IMG/VR virus record: IMGVR_UViG_3300007540_004321
Location: 1-21,757 of that record
From: a virus
DNA: 21,757 bases
Strand: one strand, 5' to 3'
In this document: positions 5,065 to 17,747 of the stretch, one piece after another
Layout of the letters: every line of letters starts with the position of its first letter
Position numbering within the stretch: the stretch's first letter is position 1
Translations under genes and position numbers: made by a program
The notes under the pieces: generated by a model
What the model was told of the DNA's origin: nothing
Seen by the model: the letters and a program-made list of their open reading frames with translations, nothing else
Database searches by the model: none

Positions 5065-5478
5065 TCAGTCAAGAATGGTGTTCTGTAGAGTGATCGGCAG
5101 GCGTGTTGTCGCCGTGGTTGATCCGTTGACCGTGTATTTCACCTGGAATTCACACGCGGCGATTGATTCCGTTGGATTTGCAAGGAAGTAAGCCGATGCC
5201 GCTTCCGTGGTGAGATCGAGAGAGAAGGACGCATCCGGTGTCCCCCGGTTGATTGCGGCAGTCGAAGAGGCGACGTAAGCGCCCCCGTAATCCCCCTGAA
5301 TCTTGACCCCTGCCAGCCATGAATCAGCGGGCGGAATCGGCTCAATCGAAGCGCCACGGCACAAAACGACAGAAATTTCGTAGACGCTGCCAAGCGTCAA
5401 TACCGGCTCCATCCAAGGCGGGGAGGTAGATCCGGGCTTTCTAACCCAATCGTTTGCGTTCAGATCGAAGTAAAGCAC
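5065..5478 (-). CDS. Probable tail appendage protein (137 aa), GTG start
   Basis: A 137-aa beta-rich protein with no recognised family. The frame opens at a GTG (5478) and no ATG occurs until residue 23, so GTG is the likely start. It is the first minus-strand gene to the left of the inverted 5577-5891 gene. The conserved 33-bp motif ends two bases before the GTG. In that motif TAAGG lies 7 nt upstream of the start, which would suit a Shine-Dalgarno site; if TAAGGT is instead a -10 box, the mRNA would be almost leaderless. Followed two bases later by the 116-aa gene and then the fibre, it probably belongs to the tail tip or fibre complex. Confidence 0.65.
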   Translation of the reverse strand: MLYFDLNANDWVRKPGSTSPPWMEPVLTLGSVYEISVVLCRGASIEPIPPADSWLAGVKIQGDYGGAYVASSTAAINRGTPDASFSLDLTTEAASAYFLANPTESIAACEFQVKYTVNGSTTATTRLPITLQNTILD

Positions 5479-8731: not shown

Positions 8732-8736
8732 TGGTT

Positions 8737-10149: not shown

Positions 10150-10512
10150 TTACGCGAACTTGTATTGGGTCGCGTTGGTTGTGATCTTGCGGAATTCGGT
10201 GTTGCCGCCTGCAAGTTCCACGTCGTCGCAATACACGCCGCCTGTGGTGACTCCGTTGGTGACTCCCTTGTTGGCGATGGTGAGAGCAACGCCAGGGGCT
10301 GCTGCTGCGATTCCGGTTGCTCCTGCTATCACGCCAGAAACGGACAGCTTGCGGAGCGGATTATAGAATGCGACAAGTGCAAAATCCCCTTGCTCGTCGC
10401 GGACTTCGTTCTTTTCGCGGGATACTTTGTCGGATGTGGTCTGGACAAGGATTCCGGTTTCTGCGGTGAGTCCCCAAGTTGCTCCTGTGGTTCCAATAGT
10501 GATTACGGCCAT
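10150..10512 (-). CDS. Major tail tube protein (gpV-like, 120 aa)
   Basis: A 120-aa beta-rich protein, MAVITIGTTGATWGLTAETGI, rich in Gly, Ala and Thr. Its place after the tail-completion gene and before the chaperone is that of the lambda major tail gene V. It has no charged low-complexity regions and fits a tube subunit of the common tail-tube fold, though it is shorter than most (lambda gpV has 246 aa). Directly upstream lies CGAACCAACCAAA, five bases before ATGGCC, a leader shared with the decoration protein; no Shine-Dalgarno is present. High expression is expected. Confidence 0.7.
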   Translation of the reverse strand: MAVITIGTTGATWGLTAETGILVQTTSDKVSREKNEVRDEQGDFALVAFYNPLRKLSVSGVIAGATGIAAAAPGVALTIANKGVTNGVTTGGVYCDDVELAGGNTEFRKITTNATQYKFA

Positions 10513-10517
10513 GATGT

Positions 10518-10530
10518 TTGGTTGGTTCGG
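10518..10530 (-). promoter_or_regulatory. CGAACCAACCAAA leader before the major tail gene
   Basis: The minus strand reads CGAACCAACCAAA, five bases before ATGGCC. The same 13 bases precede the decoration gene with nearly the same spacing. No Shine-Dalgarno lies between. The identity at two highly expressed genes suggests a functional element for translation or mRNA binding. Confidence 0.5.
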
Positions 10531-10539
10531 TGGTGTTGT

Positions 10540-13081: not shown

Positions 13082-13099
13082 ATTTTTGGGGAAAGGGTA

Positions 13100-13123
13100 G
13101 GGACGCGCCCGAAGACGCGCCCC
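13100..13123 (-). promoter_or_regulatory. 10-bp RNA hairpin with a cUUCGg tetraloop
   Basis: The minus-strand RNA folds a 10-bp stem between 13123-13114 and 13109-13100 (eight Watson-Crick pairs and two G-U pairs) closed by a C(UUCG)G tetraloop, one of the most stable loop types. It begins nine bases after the capsid stop and ends 18 bases before the glycosyltransferase ATG. No U-tract follows (UACCCUUUCCCC), so it is more likely an mRNA stabiliser or partial attenuator than a full terminator. Confidence 0.65.
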
Positions 13124-13132
13124 AGGTTGCTA

Positions 13133-14098
13133 TTATGCGTAGCTGGTTGTGATGAGTTCGCACGCGGTGGTGTCGATCACCTTCTCTGCGGTGTGCTGAC
13201 GCACGCGCAGGATGTCGGAACGGCGCTCGTCGGAGCGGTAGGTTTCCGGGGTAAACAGGCCAGTGGTGTCCTTGCTCCATTGGATGGTGCGTCCGACTCC
13301 GCCTGCTGTGTATTCGCCGCCTGCGATGTAGGCCACAGCGAAGTAGGTATCGCTCCAGATGAACGAGCCGGAATAGGTCTGTCCTTTTCCGTTTGCGTTC
13401 TTCGGAGCGCGACCGACGAGGATGTTATCCACGCCGAGAGCTTGGGCAATGTCCGCATCCGATGGGATGAGGTATTGGCCAGCGCCCTTTGGAACAACGC
13501 CAAACACCTGGTTCTGAAGCAGTGTGGAACGCTTGATGCGCTCATGCACGTTTGCAGACATAATCACCGTGTTGGGGATATGTCCGTTCCTCAGTAGGCG
13601 GAGCTTTGCGAGCGATACGTCCGCAGGGACGTTGATCGTGGCAAGGTTGGCCTCGGTGTATGCGACAGACGCGGCAGTAGCCGTGAAGGTCGATGCGTTA
13701 AACAGTGCGGCAGCGATACGGGCTTCGTAGGAGATGCGGAGCGAACGCTCAAGGAGCTGCGCTTCCGTCACTTCCAGTCCGAAGAAACGCTCGGTTTCGG
13801 CAGCGTAGGCATCATCAATGACGCTTTCGAGGCCGTATTCCAATGCGTCAAACGTATCGGTATCATACTTGCGGTTGACGCGCTGGTATCCGTCGCCGTT
13901 GGCTCGGGGTTTCGCATCGCCATTGAGCAATTCGGCATTGCCGAGATTTGCCTTCATGTAGATGCCGCGTTTGACATCCTCACCCTTGACAGGGAAAACC
14001 TTGTCGCCGATGAAGAGTTCATTGCCCGCCATAGGGGCTTGCATCATCAGAGCGTAAATGTCGCTCCGTGGTGTTGCTTGTGAGTTAGTGTAAGCCAT
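13133..14098 (-). CDS. Major capsid protein (321 aa, HK97-fold expected)
   Basis: A 321-aa protein with the composition and length of lambda gpE-type capsid subunits (lambda gpE has 341 aa). It begins MAYTNSQATPRSDIYALMMQ, has a loop-like region rich in Gly/Asn/Arg (about 60-80), a long helix region with EVTEAQLLERSLRISYEARIAAAL, and a domain with VIMSANVHERIKRSTLLQNQVFG and ends with beta strands and ...ELITTSYA. It follows the decoration gene, as in lambda D-E. The leader holds AACCAACAACCAAC instead of a Shine-Dalgarno. A strong hairpin follows its stop. It is likely the most abundant product. Confidence 0.85.
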   Translation of the reverse strand: MAYTNSQATPRSDIYALMMQAPMAGNELFIGDKVFPVKGEDVKRGIYMKANLGNAELLNGDAKPRANGDGYQRVNRKYDTDTFDALEYGLESVIDDAYAAETERFFGLEVTEAQLLERSLRISYEARIAAALFNASTFTATAASVAYTEANLATINVPADVSLAKLRLLRNGHIPNTVIMSANVHERIKRSTLLQNQVFGVVPKGAGQYLIPSDADIAQALGVDNILVGRAPKNANGKGQTYSGSFIWSDTYFAVAYIAGGEYTAGGVGRTIQWSKDTTGLFTPETYRSDERRSDILRVRQHTAEKVIDTTACELITTSYA

Positions 14099-14110
14099 GG
14101 TCGTAGTTCA

Positions 14111-14136
14111 GTTGGTTGTTGGTTTCTCGATTGGTT
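14111..14136 (-). promoter_or_regulatory. AACCAAC-type leader before the capsid gene
   Basis: The untranslated leader of the capsid gene reads, on the minus strand, AACCAA (14136-14131) and AAACCAACAACCAAC (14125-14111), ending 12 bases before the ATG. There is no purine-rich Shine-Dalgarno. Related leaders precede the decoration, major tail and nested scaffold starts. A translation-enhancing or RNA-binding role is an inference from the repetition. Confidence 0.45.
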
Positions 14137-14485
14137 AGACTTGCACGAACTCGGTCACGATCCCGTTGGATGCCACCGCCGATTCAAGGGCGACTAGGCG
14201 CGGGGTAGTAACCACACCGACGAATCCGCCCGTGATAATTCCGTATGATGTTCCTGCTGTAATAGCCGAACCTGATGCAGCTCCCATGAAGCTGCCGGGG
14301 GCGCTCCAGAGTTTGACGCTGCCGTAGTTTGCATCGGCTACGTCCTCTTGGGTGACGCCGATGCCCTTGGTGTTATCCGCTGCTGCGGTGATGGTTCCGT
14401 CCGCCTGAACGGTCACGATCCGGTATGCGGAGATCGCGCCCGAAGCGAGGAAGGACTTGAATCCGTTTTCGTTTTGACTGGCCAT
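14135..14485 (-). CDS. Capsid decoration protein (gpD-like / DUF2190-like, 116 aa)
   Basis: A 116-aa Gly/Ala/Thr-rich beta protein starting MASQNENGFKSFLASGAISAYRIVTVQADGTITAAADN and containing TKGIGVTQEDVADANYGSVKLW. This pattern matches small head-decoration or DUF2190-like proteins that bind the capsid surface after expansion and stabilise it. It sits directly before the major capsid gene, as in lambda D-E. The leader carries two AACCAACC-like units and ends CGAACCAACCAAAATT-ATG; no Shine-Dalgarno is visible. Confidence 0.75.
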   Translation of the reverse strand: MASQNENGFKSFLASGAISAYRIVTVQADGTITAAADNTKGIGVTQEDVADANYGSVKLWSAPGSFMGAASGSAITAGTSYGIITGGFVGVVTTPRLVALESAVASNGIVTEFVQV

Positions 14486-14491
14486 AATTTT

Positions 14492-14509
14492 GGTTGGTTC
14501 GTTGGTTGG
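14492..14509 (-). promoter_or_regulatory. Repeated CCAACC leader before the decoration gene
   Basis: On the minus strand the leader reads CCAACCAACGAACCAACC, seven bases before the ATG. It contains a tandem repeat and shares CGAACCAACCAAA with the leader of the major tail gene (10518-10530). The opposite strand, GGTTGGTTCGTTGGTTGG, has four GG pairs and could form a two-layer G-quadruplex. The function is unproven. Confidence 0.45.
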
Positions 14510-14515
14510 TGATTA

Positions 14516-14977
14516 TTATGCGGTTTTCACATTGCGGGATGCTTCCCACGCCTTGTATGCGTCGGGATGCTTGGCCTTGTTGGTTAGGATGTGACCCTCA
14601 GCCTTGATGCGGTCGCCGCTGAATTCCTTCTCGGCAATTTCAGCAACGTGTTCGCTGTAGGTCTTAATCTTGGCGGGGGCGGATGCGGGGACTCCTGGCT
14701 TGCCGAGCTTGGTAAGTCCGAGTTTTGCGGACATGGCCTTGATGGCGATTTCCGCGCCGCGCTGTGCAGCAAGCTCGATCTTCTTGTCGTCCTCGTCATT
14801 GTCGGAGCTGAGTTCGGATTTCTCCTCTTCCTCGCTGCCGTCTTCCAATTCGGATTTTTCTTCGTCCTTGGCCTCTTCCTCGGGTGGCGACTCAAGAGCC
14901 GTCAAGCGGGTGCTAAATTCCTCGAATTTGGACATGAGATCCGCGAGGGTTGGTTCTGTTTGTTCTTCGTCTTCCAT
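14516..14977 (-). CDS. Probable nested scaffold from an internal start (153 aa)
   Basis: Inside the protease gene, M172 (ATG at 14977) begins MEDEEQTEPTLADLMSKFEEF, a natural N-terminus for the acidic scaffold. Directly before it the sequence reads AACCAACATAACCAAT-ATG, the same AACCAA-type leader found before the decoration, major tail and capsid genes but not expected inside a coding region. In lambda the scaffold Nu3 is made from such an internal start within C. The product would hold the whole scaffold part without the protease. This is an inference from position and leader. Confidence 0.5.
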   Translation of the reverse strand: MEDEEQTEPTLADLMSKFEEFSTRLTALESPPEEEAKDEEKSELEDGSEEEEKSELSSDNDEDDKKIELAAQRGAEIAIKAMSAKLGLTKLGKPGVPASAPAKIKTYSEHVAEIAEKEFSGDRIKAEGHILTNKAKHPDAYKAWEASRNVKTA

Positions 14978-15490
14978 ATTGGTTATGTTGGTTTCTGTTT
15001 CGGTTTCTTCCTCAGCCTTCGCGGAGAAGAGAGAGCTATTTGCTGCTGGGTCATCCACCAGTGCGGCGGCAAGGACTCCATCGCAGCGGGACATGCAAAC
15101 GGTTCCACGGGGCTTATCTTCGCCCGTGAACTCCATGCTGATCCCCATGTGTTCCGGGTTCTGATCCGCTATCTCAAGGATGCGCCCCCGGTTGCTTTCG
15201 GATTCATAAATATGCACATCGGCAAGCACCTTGTCGGCTTGCAGCGCGAAGTTATCCGCCCAGCCGATCACCTCGAAAACGCCGCTGCCGTGGTTGGCCT
15301 TCAGCTTGATCTTGCCGAGCTTTTTGCACTCCTTGAAAAGCTGCTCAAGTGTCACCTCATCAATGATTACCTGACGGCCTTTCTTGTCGAAATGACCCTT
15401 CGCATCGCCCATTTTCATCAGCGAGACGGAACGGATGATGCCGTTGTCCTTGTCGATCCGTGGGGATTCCAGTGCGGTGTAGAGCTTCAT
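14516..15490 (-). CDS. Prohead protease fused to scaffold (324 aa)
   Basis: The N-terminal part (about 1-160) has the prohead protease pattern: KLKANHGSGVFEVIGWADNF with likely catalytic H67, EHMGISMEF with likely nucleophile S118, and the closing phrase ALVDDPAANSSLF typical of this family. From about 160 to 245 it is extremely acidic (Glu/Asp/Ser runs) and 245-324 is helical and basic, as expected of a scaffold that directs capsid assembly and is then cut up. This matches lambda gpC, whose scaffold part is also made separately as Nu3. It overlaps the portal stop by ATGA. Antisense frames opposite the acidic region are compositional artefacts. Confidence 0.85.
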   Translation of the reverse strand: MKLYTALESPRIDKDNGIIRSVSLMKMGDAKGHFDKKGRQVIIDEVTLEQLFKECKKLGKIKLKANHGSGVFEVIGWADNFALQADKVLADVHIYESESNRGRILEIADQNPEHMGISMEFTGEDKPRGTVCMSRCDGVLAAALVDDPAANSSLFSAKAEEETETETNITNMEDEEQTEPTLADLMSKFEEFSTRLTALESPPEEEAKDEEKSELEDGSEEEEKSELSSDNDEDDKKIELAAQRGAEIAIKAMSAKLGLTKLGKPGVPASAPAKIKTYSEHVAEIAEKEFSGDRIKAEGHILTNKAKHPDAYKAWEASRNVKTA

Positions 15491-17490
15491 GGGTAGTATT
15501 GTTTCTGGATGTCTGCCGGAAGTTTGCTTTTCTGGAACTTGCCGCTCTCCACGATGTCGTAAGCGATGGCGTATGCCTCCTGCTCGGGTTTGCCGGATTG
15601 CAATAGCGCCTGGGTGAGTGCGTGGCGGTCATCGCGCTTCCTTGCCTTAACTGCCTTTGCTTCCGGGGTTGGCTTGTCGGATGATGGCTTCTTGTCATCA
15701 CGCCGCTCCCTGCGTCCCTTGAGTTGGTCTAGTGCCACCTTGTGTTCCGTGAGGTAGGAGTTTGCCTTGTCGAGTTCCACGCGCAGGCGTTGGAGTGCTT
15801 CCGGGTTGCTTCCGTCCGCAAGATCCGTGATGGATTCCTTGATATCGGAAACCCAATCCTCTCCGAACTCCACCGCGCTTGTCTCCTTGTCGATGCGGGC
15901 ATTGATTGAGGAATCGGCTTCGCGGTAGTTCTTGCGGGCGGAAAACTCCTTGGGTGCTTCGTCGGTGGTTGTGGATTCCGTGACACTCTCGCTGGTGGAG
16001 AGCGGTTTCGATGGTCCACTGCCGAAGATGTCCTCGACGGGGATTCCTGATTTCTCGGAAGAGACTTTCTTGATCTGCGCCCAACGTGTCATGGATGCGG
16101 CCACATCCTCCGGGTCTTGGCTGTTCTCGATCCAATGCTGCATCGGGTCAAGCAGACCGTGTTCGTAAAGGTTGACCGCTGCGGATGCTTCCTTGCCGAG
16201 ATCCGGCTGCGGGTGCCTGCGGTATCCCCATCGCCCCTTGTGGATCACGCGCAGGGTGGAGGCGGGGAAAATGCCCTTGGCGATTGCGTCGTAAAGGAAG
16301 GCGTTCTTGATGCGGTTCGCGTGTGGGGTGAGAACCTTCTGGAATCGTTCAAAGGTCGCCTTCGCCATCTCACTTTCAAGGCGGCTGGACACGCCACCAA
16401 GTGCCGATGCGTCAAGGGCGAAAGAGTAGGGGAGATCGTAGGACATCGCCACGAACTTAAGAAGCTGGGTCATCAACCATTGCTCCTCACTCGATGGGGA
16501 AGTGGTGGATGGGAACTTGATATCCGTTCCAGCCGCAAGGTGGTTGATCTGCCCAAACTCGATGTCCTGCTGAAGTGCGGATTGCCCGCCCGGCGTGAGG
16601 TTGGTCGAGTAGGCATCGAAAGCCCCGCTCCCCGTCATCGCTCCGTTGGAGTTGGTGAAGACGGTTATGGCGCTGGCGAGCTTTGCCTTGCCCTTCACGA
16701 AATCAATCATCTCGTAAAGGTCGCGCAGGTTCTGGATGGCCGTAGCAAGGATGGAAACGCCCCGGTATTGGTCAATCCGCATCGGGTCGGTCAGATGGAC
16801 GAAATCCGCAGCAGGAACATCAATAGGGTTGTCGTAGGTGTTCGTGGTCATCGACCGATGAAACACACGGAAGGAATCAACCTGCCCATGCTCCCCGATG
16901 TTCAGTCCGGAAACGTAGTCATTGGAAACGACGTTCTGATAGATGCCGCCGATCCTGTCCGGCTCGATGGCCTGGATCTTGAGAGGGAGCTGTAATGCGT
17001 CTTCCTCGCTGATTCCCTCGTATGAGCCCGGCCTTTGGAAAGCCCAGCCGTAATCCCCGCCCCGGTTGCAGCCCATCACGCCGAACTCAAGCATCTGGAA
17101 GAATCCGTAGCGCCCGGTGATATCGCAGCTAGGGAAAACCTCTTCCTCAAGGTATTCCTCAATTTCCTTGTCGAGCTTCTGATCCCCGGTCTGCGCGTGG
17201 TAACTCTGCGGGGTGACATACATCGCAAACTTGCGATTGAGCATCTTCGCAGGAGCAAAGTTCCTCTCCATATCCTCAGCCTCCCGCATGAGTTGCAGGC
17301 GGTCGCGCTGCACATCGAAGGAGTTTGGCGACATGTTCTGCGGTGCCTGCCCGCGCTTATGGTCGGACTTCGCGCCGTCATAACGGAATTCGTGAATCAC
17401 GCGCTTTGCCGCAAGCCGTTTCAGCCCACGCTCCGGTGAGATTGCGCAAAGCATGTTATCGAAAACCCCGGCCTTGAAATCAGGTGTCAT
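15487..17490 (-). CDS. Portal protein (lambda gpB-like, 667 aa)
   Basis: A 667-aa protein of the lambda gpB portal type. It opens with a basic segment SPERGLKRLAAKRVIHEFRYDGA (about 18-40), and carries FVHLTDPMRIDQYRGVSILATAIQNL (about 230-255), a conserved stretch near the portal stem in this family. The 12-subunit ring is the DNA gate of the head. Residues from about 500 are a hydrophilic extension with a lysine/arginine-rich part (GRRERRDDKK, KARKRDD) and a final helix ending in KQYYP; lambda gpB is 533 aa, so the C-terminal tail is longer than usual. It overlaps the gpW-like stop as ATGA and the protease start as ATGA. Confidence 0.88.
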   Translation of the reverse strand: MTPDFKAGVFDNMLCAISPERGLKRLAAKRVIHEFRYDGAKSDHKRGQAPQNMSPNSFDVQRDRLQLMREAEDMERNFAPAKMLNRKFAMYVTPQSYHAQTGDQKLDKEIEEYLEEEVFPSCDITGRYGFFQMLEFGVMGCNRGGDYGWAFQRPGSYEGISEEDALQLPLKIQAIEPDRIGGIYQNVVSNDYVSGLNIGEHGQVDSFRVFHRSMTTNTYDNPIDVPAADFVHLTDPMRIDQYRGVSILATAIQNLRDLYEMIDFVKGKAKLASAITVFTNSNGAMTGSGAFDAYSTNLTPGGQSALQQDIEFGQINHLAAGTDIKFPSTTSPSSEEQWLMTQLLKFVAMSYDLPYSFALDASALGGVSSRLESEMAKATFERFQKVLTPHANRIKNAFLYDAIAKGIFPASTLRVIHKGRWGYRRHPQPDLGKEASAAVNLYEHGLLDPMQHWIENSQDPEDVAASMTRWAQIKKVSSEKSGIPVEDIFGSGPSKPLSTSESVTESTTTDEAPKEFSARKNYREADSSINARIDKETSAVEFGEDWVSDIKESITDLADGSNPEALQRLRVELDKANSYLTEHKVALDQLKGRRERRDDKKPSSDKPTPEAKAVKARKRDDRHALTQALLQSGKPEQEAYAIAYDIVESGKFQKSKLPADIQKQYYP

Positions 17491-17747
17491 CGTGATCCCC
17501 TCCCGACGCTAGGGTTGAAGTTGGCGCGGGTATTGTGTGAGCGTGTCCCGGTGAGAAGCCCAAGCGCATAGACGGCCTCCTGCAATGTTGCGGATGCGCT
17601 TTCCAACGAAGGGAAGGAAAAGGATCGTCCGGCGATTGTGTAGGAAATGCCGCGCACGGTTCCTGCGATGATCGCAGCCTTGCACGCATCCCGGATCTCG
17701 ATCAGGTCGGCGGACTCAAGTCCCACAAGAGTTTGCTTGATAGCCAT
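17487..17747 (-). CDS. Head-tail joining protein (gpW-like, 86 aa)
   Basis: An 86-aa protein directly before the portal, as with lambda W. It has two helices (LESADLIEIRDACKAAII and SASATLQEAVYALGLL) flanking a beta hairpin ISYTIAGRSFSFPS, the exact topology of gpW, which enters the portal after packaging and helps retain DNA. The C-terminal tail of about 20 residues (THNTRANF-like, Arg-rich) extends beyond lambda gpW's 68 residues. Its ATG overlaps the stop of the 33-aa gene as TGATG and its stop overlaps the portal start. Confidence 0.85.
   Translation of the reverse strand: MAIKQTLVGLESADLIEIRDACKAAIIAGTVRGISYTIAGRSFSFPSLESASATLQEAVYALGLLTGTRSHNTRANFNPSVGRGSR

Follow-up and report, generated by a model that had tools for sequence, protein, structure and literature searches.

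The A/C-rich leaders in front of several late genes of this virus are probably Shine-Dalgarno (SD)-independent translation start signals that replaced SD sites, including one at a nested scaffold start similar to that of lambda C/Nu3. Judged from the leaders of relatives, the conserved trait is an A/C-rich, nearly G-free and unstructured leader, not a fixed series of letters.

The window (the whole 21.8 kb stretch of DNA analyzed here) is a virus record whose late operon lies on the minus strand in a lambda-like order: terminase, portal, protease/scaffold-like, decoration, capsid, inserted glycosyltransferase, head-tail, putative major tail and tape measure genes. The terminase large subunit and portal genes matched PHROG 15 and PHROG 21/Pfam Phage_portal_2, respectively, and the major capsid protein gene (13133..14098, minus strand) matched PHROG 1005, major head protein, with an E value of 2.5e-23. 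The gene at 14135..14485 (minus strand) encodes a capsid decoration protein, an assignment based on its position between the scaffold and capsid genes and on a confident AlphaFold model (pLDDT 90.7), whose best matches were solved capsid decoration/stabilization proteins and the base of the phi29 head fibre gp8.5. The putative major tail tube protein gene (10150..10512, minus strand) was assigned by its position in the lambda-like order; its product had no family match in profile searches, and its low-confidence model (pLDDT 60.4) gave weak tail/neck matches. The tape measure gene was assigned from gene order alone. The open reading frame (ORF) at 14516..15490 (minus strand), which occupies the position of lambda C/Nu3, encodes a protein of 324 amino acid residues that we take to be a protease-scaffold fusion, the protease label being given by position and recall. 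No Pfam or PHROG match was found for it, including any family match to lambda's C. Many other minus-strand genes overlap their neighbor by 1–4 nt, as the sequence-only reading had pointed out for most of them, or start within a few nt of its end, and the overlapping genes may be translationally coupled. In addition, an inverted repeat, GGGCGCGTC-TTCG-GGCGCGTCCC, is found at 13082-13132, after the capsid gene and before the inserted glycosyltransferase gene, and different GC-rich hairpins are found after the capsid gene in relatives.

Four A/C leaders, all on the minus strand, are placed inside this compact operon. Those of the decoration gene (14486..14515; 15 A, 10 C, 1 G, and 4 T) and the putative major tail gene (10513..10539; 13 A, 12 C, 1 G, and 1 T) contain the only two minus-strand copies of CGAACCAACCAAA (14501-14489 and 10529-10517), which precede ATGGCC at 14485 and 10512, respectively; the sharing of this leader was read correctly from the sequence alone. 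The same is true for the similar leaders of the capsid gene (14099..14134; 16 A, 13 C, 4 G, and 3 T), which reads CCAATCGAGAAACCAACAACCAACTGAACTACGACC, and of the nested start at 14977, which is preceded by GAAACAGAAACCAACATAACCAAT. The nested leader (14978..15001) lies inside the protease/scaffold coding sequence and encodes ETETNITN. The tape measure gene, also proposed as a case, has only the 5 nt AACCA (8732..8736, minus strand) before its ATG, and none of its 7 non-redundant leaders, the window's included, had at least 70% A+C; it is outside the conserved set. AACCAAC had nine matches in the window, all on the minus strand, vs. 3.0 expected (1 of 100 shuffles reached nine), and the four leaders account for six of them. 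The octamer AACCAACC had three matches vs. 0.65 expected, and 3 of 100 shuffles reached three. One of these matches is in scaffold coding sequence, and on its own the enrichment of the octamer in the window is weak, barely beyond chance.

A capsid search of IMG/VR identified 103 encoding stretches, from which 80 metagenomic loci were kept and split at 60% best-segment identity into 47 inner loci (the window's clade) and 33 outer loci (the sister clade). L082, a contig described below, was placed in neither group for the 70% A+C counts. In a capsid tree of 43 representatives, built by a quick method with SH-aLRT support only, the inner set fell into a single starred clade (27 rows), whose unresolved base included L026, L030, and L043; L026 and L043-L046 were mixed exceptions within the window's clade. 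Starts were regarded as homologous when a tblastn alignment on the same strand began no later than the third residue and a start codon was no more than 4 codons away; other hits were discarded. To remove redundancy, leaders had to differ from one another at 6 or more positions in 30 nt (8 for the motif shuffle test), and those containing N were excluded from the G-count analysis onward. This gave 67 structural leaders of the inner clade, the window included (28 decoration, 22 capsid, and 17 tail), which were compared with 148 control leaders of 13 other genes of the same clade, many of which overlap the preceding gene and are hence coding.

At least 70% A+C in 30 nt was found in 54 of the 67 structural leaders vs. 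24 of the 148 controls, and by start in 28/28 decoration, 16/22 capsid, and 10/17 tail leaders. The structural leaders had 0.88 G per 25 nt vs. 4.88 in the controls (p = 6e-22, with related leaders treated as independent once redundancy-filtered), and the tail leaders had a median of one G in 30. Moreover, A was at position −3 in 81% of the structural leaders vs. 42% of the controls. The predicted folding energy from −35 to +35 was −4.2 kcal/mol at structural starts vs. −10.4 kcal/mol at control starts, and the predicted unpaired fraction was 0.79 vs. 0.57. No ATG was found within the leaders of any of the four classes, where shuffles predicted only 0.4–1.9. These starts combine lack of an SD site, weak structure around the start and A at −3, as in SD-independent initiation on leadered mRNAs. 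SD-like 4-mers at −20 to −5 were found in 0/28 decoration, 1/22 capsid, and 1/17 tail leaders of the inner clade, and the purine-rich complement of the anti-SD about 5–17 nt upstream that marks SD-led initiation was lacking at nearly all leaders of these three starts.

The letters of the leaders were much less constant than their composition. Between the window and a close relative, L002, whose capsid is 89% identical, the decoration leaders were 67% identical and the capsid leaders 86%, and the L002 decoration leader is without the octamer AACCAACC, which had been expected to persist in close relatives. In close leader pairs, 70 of 82 substitutions were A-C, C-T, or A-T and 12 involved G, whereas G was involved in 43 of 103 changes in control pairs, mostly A-G. 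Because changes between close pairs seldom involve G, the letters drift yet G is kept out. The expected conservation in relatives was thus borne out for the kind of leader, kept at homologous starts across the clade, but not for the letters of the octamer.

Different from the inner clade, the sister clade has SD-like sites at most of the homologous starts. Its decoration leaders read like AAAGGATAAAAGAAA, its tail leaders mostly have GAGG or AAAGGA sites, and upstream of its nested start are sequences such as AAAAAAGGAGATAAAAAT, with an AAGGAG or AAGGA-type site. SD-like 4-mers were found in 5/5 decoration and 5/6 tail leaders, i.e., 10 of 11 non-redundant leaders vs. 1.3 expected from shuffles, a count whose outer range nominally takes in L082. 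At the capsid start, the outer leader is A-rich and had no SD-like 4-mer (0/4). The claim that A/C leaders replaced SD sites therefore holds at the decoration, tail and nested starts, and the exchange is clear at only these three of the four, because the capsid leader of the sister clade also lacks an SD site. Within the inner clade, the control leaders had a modest excess of SD-like 4-mers (36/148 vs. 22.7 by shuffles), and its coupled genes may still make use of anti-SD pairing.

The case for the leader being a signal is strongest at the nested start. The putative nested scaffold gene (14516..14977, minus strand), which would encode the C-terminal 153 residues of the longer protein, begins at an in-frame ATG that follows 24 nt of A/C sequence, at the junction before an acidic C-terminal part. 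Among 32 non-redundant inner ORFs, 28 had two or fewer G in the 24 nt before this ATG, the exceptions being L013 and L018 (3 G each) and L026 and L046 (5 G each). The residues encoded by the leader varied (NKTNNTTK, ETKPNQTN, KNETNINN, TKTTNLDT, etc.), and at synonymous third positions only 5 of 185 codons had G vs. 52.3 expected from each gene's own usage; none of 2000 simulations was as low. The nested ATG was chosen as the lowest-G one among 1–4 candidates, and control ATGs picked likewise elsewhere in the same genes showed 48 wobble G vs. 38.8 expected, while the best of three random windows gave 37 vs. 47.6 expected. The G content was 2–4% over −18 to −1 and returned to 31% over the six bases starting with ATG. 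Since G is avoided at synonymous sites within coding sequence, the nested leader is best regarded as a signal and not as spacer DNA. The in-frame ATG behind a G-poor leader, together with the SD-like site at the sister-clade start, points to a nested scaffold gene. Similar to the lambda head module, with its order W, B, C/nu3, D, E ... V ... H, this gene would start in frame within a protease gene and make up its C-terminal scaffold part between the portal and decoration genes, as far as sequence and gene order indicate. Different from lambda, whose nu3 start is without an A/C leader, the nested start here is marked by an A/C leader in coding sequence. No nested A/C start was found in the protease genes of P8625 and Moulinsart.

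In the mechanism that we favor, the leader would be a stretch of 20–35 nt of mRNA made almost only of A and C, with about 5% G, A at −3 and AAC[CT]AA units. It would keep the start codon single-stranded, and the 30S subunit would load without an anti-SD duplex. The nested scaffold, decoration, capsid and tail genes would thereby gain strong independent initiation inside the late operon, while most other genes would rely on overlap with the preceding gene. We infer that ribosomes use these leaders, that the binding step involves open RNA and possibly bS1, that expression is high and that the host is SD-scarce; the status of the leader genes as the most highly expressed ones, asserted in the sequence-only reading, was inferred from gene function. 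The idea that the leaders are reserved for structural proteins did not hold up. As similar leaders of relatives also precede replication-region and small hypothetical genes, the signal probably serves independent initiation in general.

The main rival is that AAC[CT]AA is recognized as a sequence and that the factor bound to it, a host or phage RNA-binding protein or part of the 16S rRNA, recruits ribosomes or regulates them, with openness secondary. We consider this possible but unlikely. The exact octamer was rejected as the signal, being present in only 6 of the 67 non-redundant leaders. The unit AAC[CT]AA exceeded composition shuffles in each class separately, with 21 vs. 4.8 in decoration, 15 vs. 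2.8 in capsid, 10 vs. 2.6 in tail, and 18 vs. 4.7 in nested leaders, and in every class none of 1000 shuffles was as high; L026 and L043-L046 were left out of this test. Across 23 contigs, its density per kb was 26.5 in structural and 2.6 in control leaders, compared with 0.67 elsewhere and 0.26 on the opposite strand. This enrichment hints that more than openness is involved. However, the number and position of the units vary, AACCAAC is present in only 19/67 leaders, and tandem duplication in low-complexity DNA could raise the count too. Neither bS21 nor an S1-domain protein was found in any of the 12 longer relatives searched for these two, so such a phage-borne factor was rejected. C[CT]AAC is complementary to GUUGG, which we take to lie near the 3′ end of 16S rRNA, but it was not enriched in nested leaders (5 vs. 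3.8 expected). Because the repeats could arise by duplication in open A/C sequence, we retain openness as the principal mechanism, with specific recognition as the leading rival. In the most far-reaching reading, also possible but unlikely, tandem AAC[CT]AA units would form a third type of ribosome binding site in bacteria, read specifically by a host factor or rRNA element; they would have displaced SD sites at homologous starts in one phage lineage and would be written even into coding sequence for a nested gene.

Other sequence features of the leaders were also assessed. A template-strand G-quadruplex was rejected, as the four-CC pattern fitted 6/67 leaders and was not conserved. Sharing of leader letters within genomes, for which a first test was suggestive (p-values from 0.0005 to 0.29), was rejected as well: without L026 and L043 and after correction for composition, two of six pairs were below 0.05 (0.027 and 0.023) and a third was at 0.053, and no pair survived correction for six tests. 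In isolated phages, AACYAA was weakly above shuffles in P8625 (7 vs. 3.1; 9 of 300 shuffles as high), and counts were 1 vs. 1.0 in Moulinsart, 2 vs. 3.6 in P12024L, 0 vs. 0.6 in lambda, and 3 vs. 0.6 in RcOceanus, an SD user. Given these mixed counts, the SD-using RcOceanus included, the hexamer alone is not diagnostic. The P8625 capsid leader has no G in 25 nt, the lowest of its 52 genes.

It is very improbable that the leaders are by-products of composition, such that mutation would have enriched the coding strand of intergenic spacers in A and C without any role in initiation. All genes concerned are on one strand and short spacers are free of coding constraint, which would suit such an origin, but at the nested start the A/C stretch is part of a coding sequence and shows synonymous bias. 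Moreover, the best spacer controls, the leaders of the glycosyltransferase gene and the first portal-operon gene, reached at least 70% A+C in only 1/20 and 0/21 cases, respectively; in the small g5478 control set, 3/5 leaders did. In the window and 12 inner loci, such leaders preceded 52 of 805 first-ATG ORFs of at least 60 residues vs. 7 of 4163 ATGs of ORFs shorter than 25 residues, figures that serve as contrasts and not as rates, the ORF lists including many spurious frames; in three outer loci, 0/137 ORFs had one. Hardly any probability remains for regulation of the late genes by Rho loading or by binding of a GU-rich small RNA: rut sites are C-rich and G-poor, which the leaders resemble, but the leaders are short, Rho loading would be unusual at the one located inside a translated gene, and we know of no GU-rich small RNA of this kind here, for which the letters would be too variable to form a fixed seed, even though CA-rich elements are targets of GcvB. 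According to the account of these targets in PMC3879156, they lie in or adjoin ribosome binding sites.

SD-independent translation start signals of the kind favored here have known counterparts. SD-scarce organisms include Akkermansia and a Verrucomicrobia strain (PMC10783764), structure and A at −3 are described as determinants of initiation in Flavobacterium (PMC6847099), and non-SD genes with weak structure have been reported (PMC5397173). Similar to initiation in Bacteroidetes and other SD-scarce bacteria as these sources portray it, the phage starts lack an SD site and have weak structure and A at −3. Different from the leaders of those bacteria, however, they consist of A plus C with AAC[CT]AA units and mark chosen genes, and in the leaders of one Bacteroidetes phage AACYAA was at no more than shuffle level (2 vs. 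3.6). The ACA/CA enhancers of enterobacteria, which raise translation and among which an ACAA repeat is said to promote SD-free initiation (PMC3879156), are likewise A/C-rich, G-poor elements before a start, but those treated in that source accompany an SD site, and ACA did not exceed the shuffle level in any of the four classes here (36 vs. 42.4 in decoration leaders). Similar to our leaders, the C-rich ribosome binding sites that were selected in vitro and are also found in some phages (PMC3310771) are SD-free, with an example before a phage structural gene. They are dominated by C as described there, whereas C makes up only about 27% here (26–28% in the leaders) and CCC is depleted, with 1 in decoration leaders vs. 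10.9 expected. No account of these A/C leaders was found in the literature covered, which included few subscription journals. Thus, SD-free, unstructured initiation is already known, and its A/C form in this phage clade appears to be new.

As for the host, the best terminase match in the collection searched was to a Verrucomicrobia phage (23% identical), which serves as a lead only; neither the terminase nor other proteins pointed clearly to one host, and genes of other relatives point elsewhere. A single tRNA gene was found in 23 loci. The sole bacterial match was L082 (RFYV01000066.1), a 14 kb contig of a MAG titled Betaproteobacteria, whose capsid is 49% identical. It has SD-like leaders, AAAGGAAC-type ones as well, and is perhaps a mis-binned phage contig.

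Several further starts were observed. Promoter-like, near-identical stretches are present on the minus strand of the window, TTGACTTTGTTGGGTGATTTACTAAGGT (17886-17859) and TTGACAATCTTGAGTGGTTTACTAAGGT (5512-5485). The latter ends just a few bases upstream of the GTG at 5478, which suggests a very short or absent leader for that gene. Upstream of the first portal-operon gene, the homolog of window 17487-17747, relatives such as L018 and L035 have promoter-like TTGC...TA-rich boxes that end near its ATG, and their placement hints at leaderless or short-leader transcripts. Several small genes at L087:3159-5013 have near-identical leaders with ccccggcaaaacaaccccaaccgaaaaccacacc before ATG, as if copied. 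Finally, one ORF at L086:11192-12358 has two further in-frame MTTTEQLAA starts, each behind a repeated ccaaccaaccaaacaa, and these are possibly more nested genes.

This phage family would offer a natural experiment on how start codons are chosen in bacteria that barely use SD sites, as its homologous starts have SD-like sites in one clade but A/C leaders in its sister. The leader placed within a gene sets the signal apart from ordinary spacer DNA, and it makes the nested scaffold gene recognizable from sequence. The leaders would also provide a start-site model for gene finders in such phages, where SD-based tools would miss these starts.
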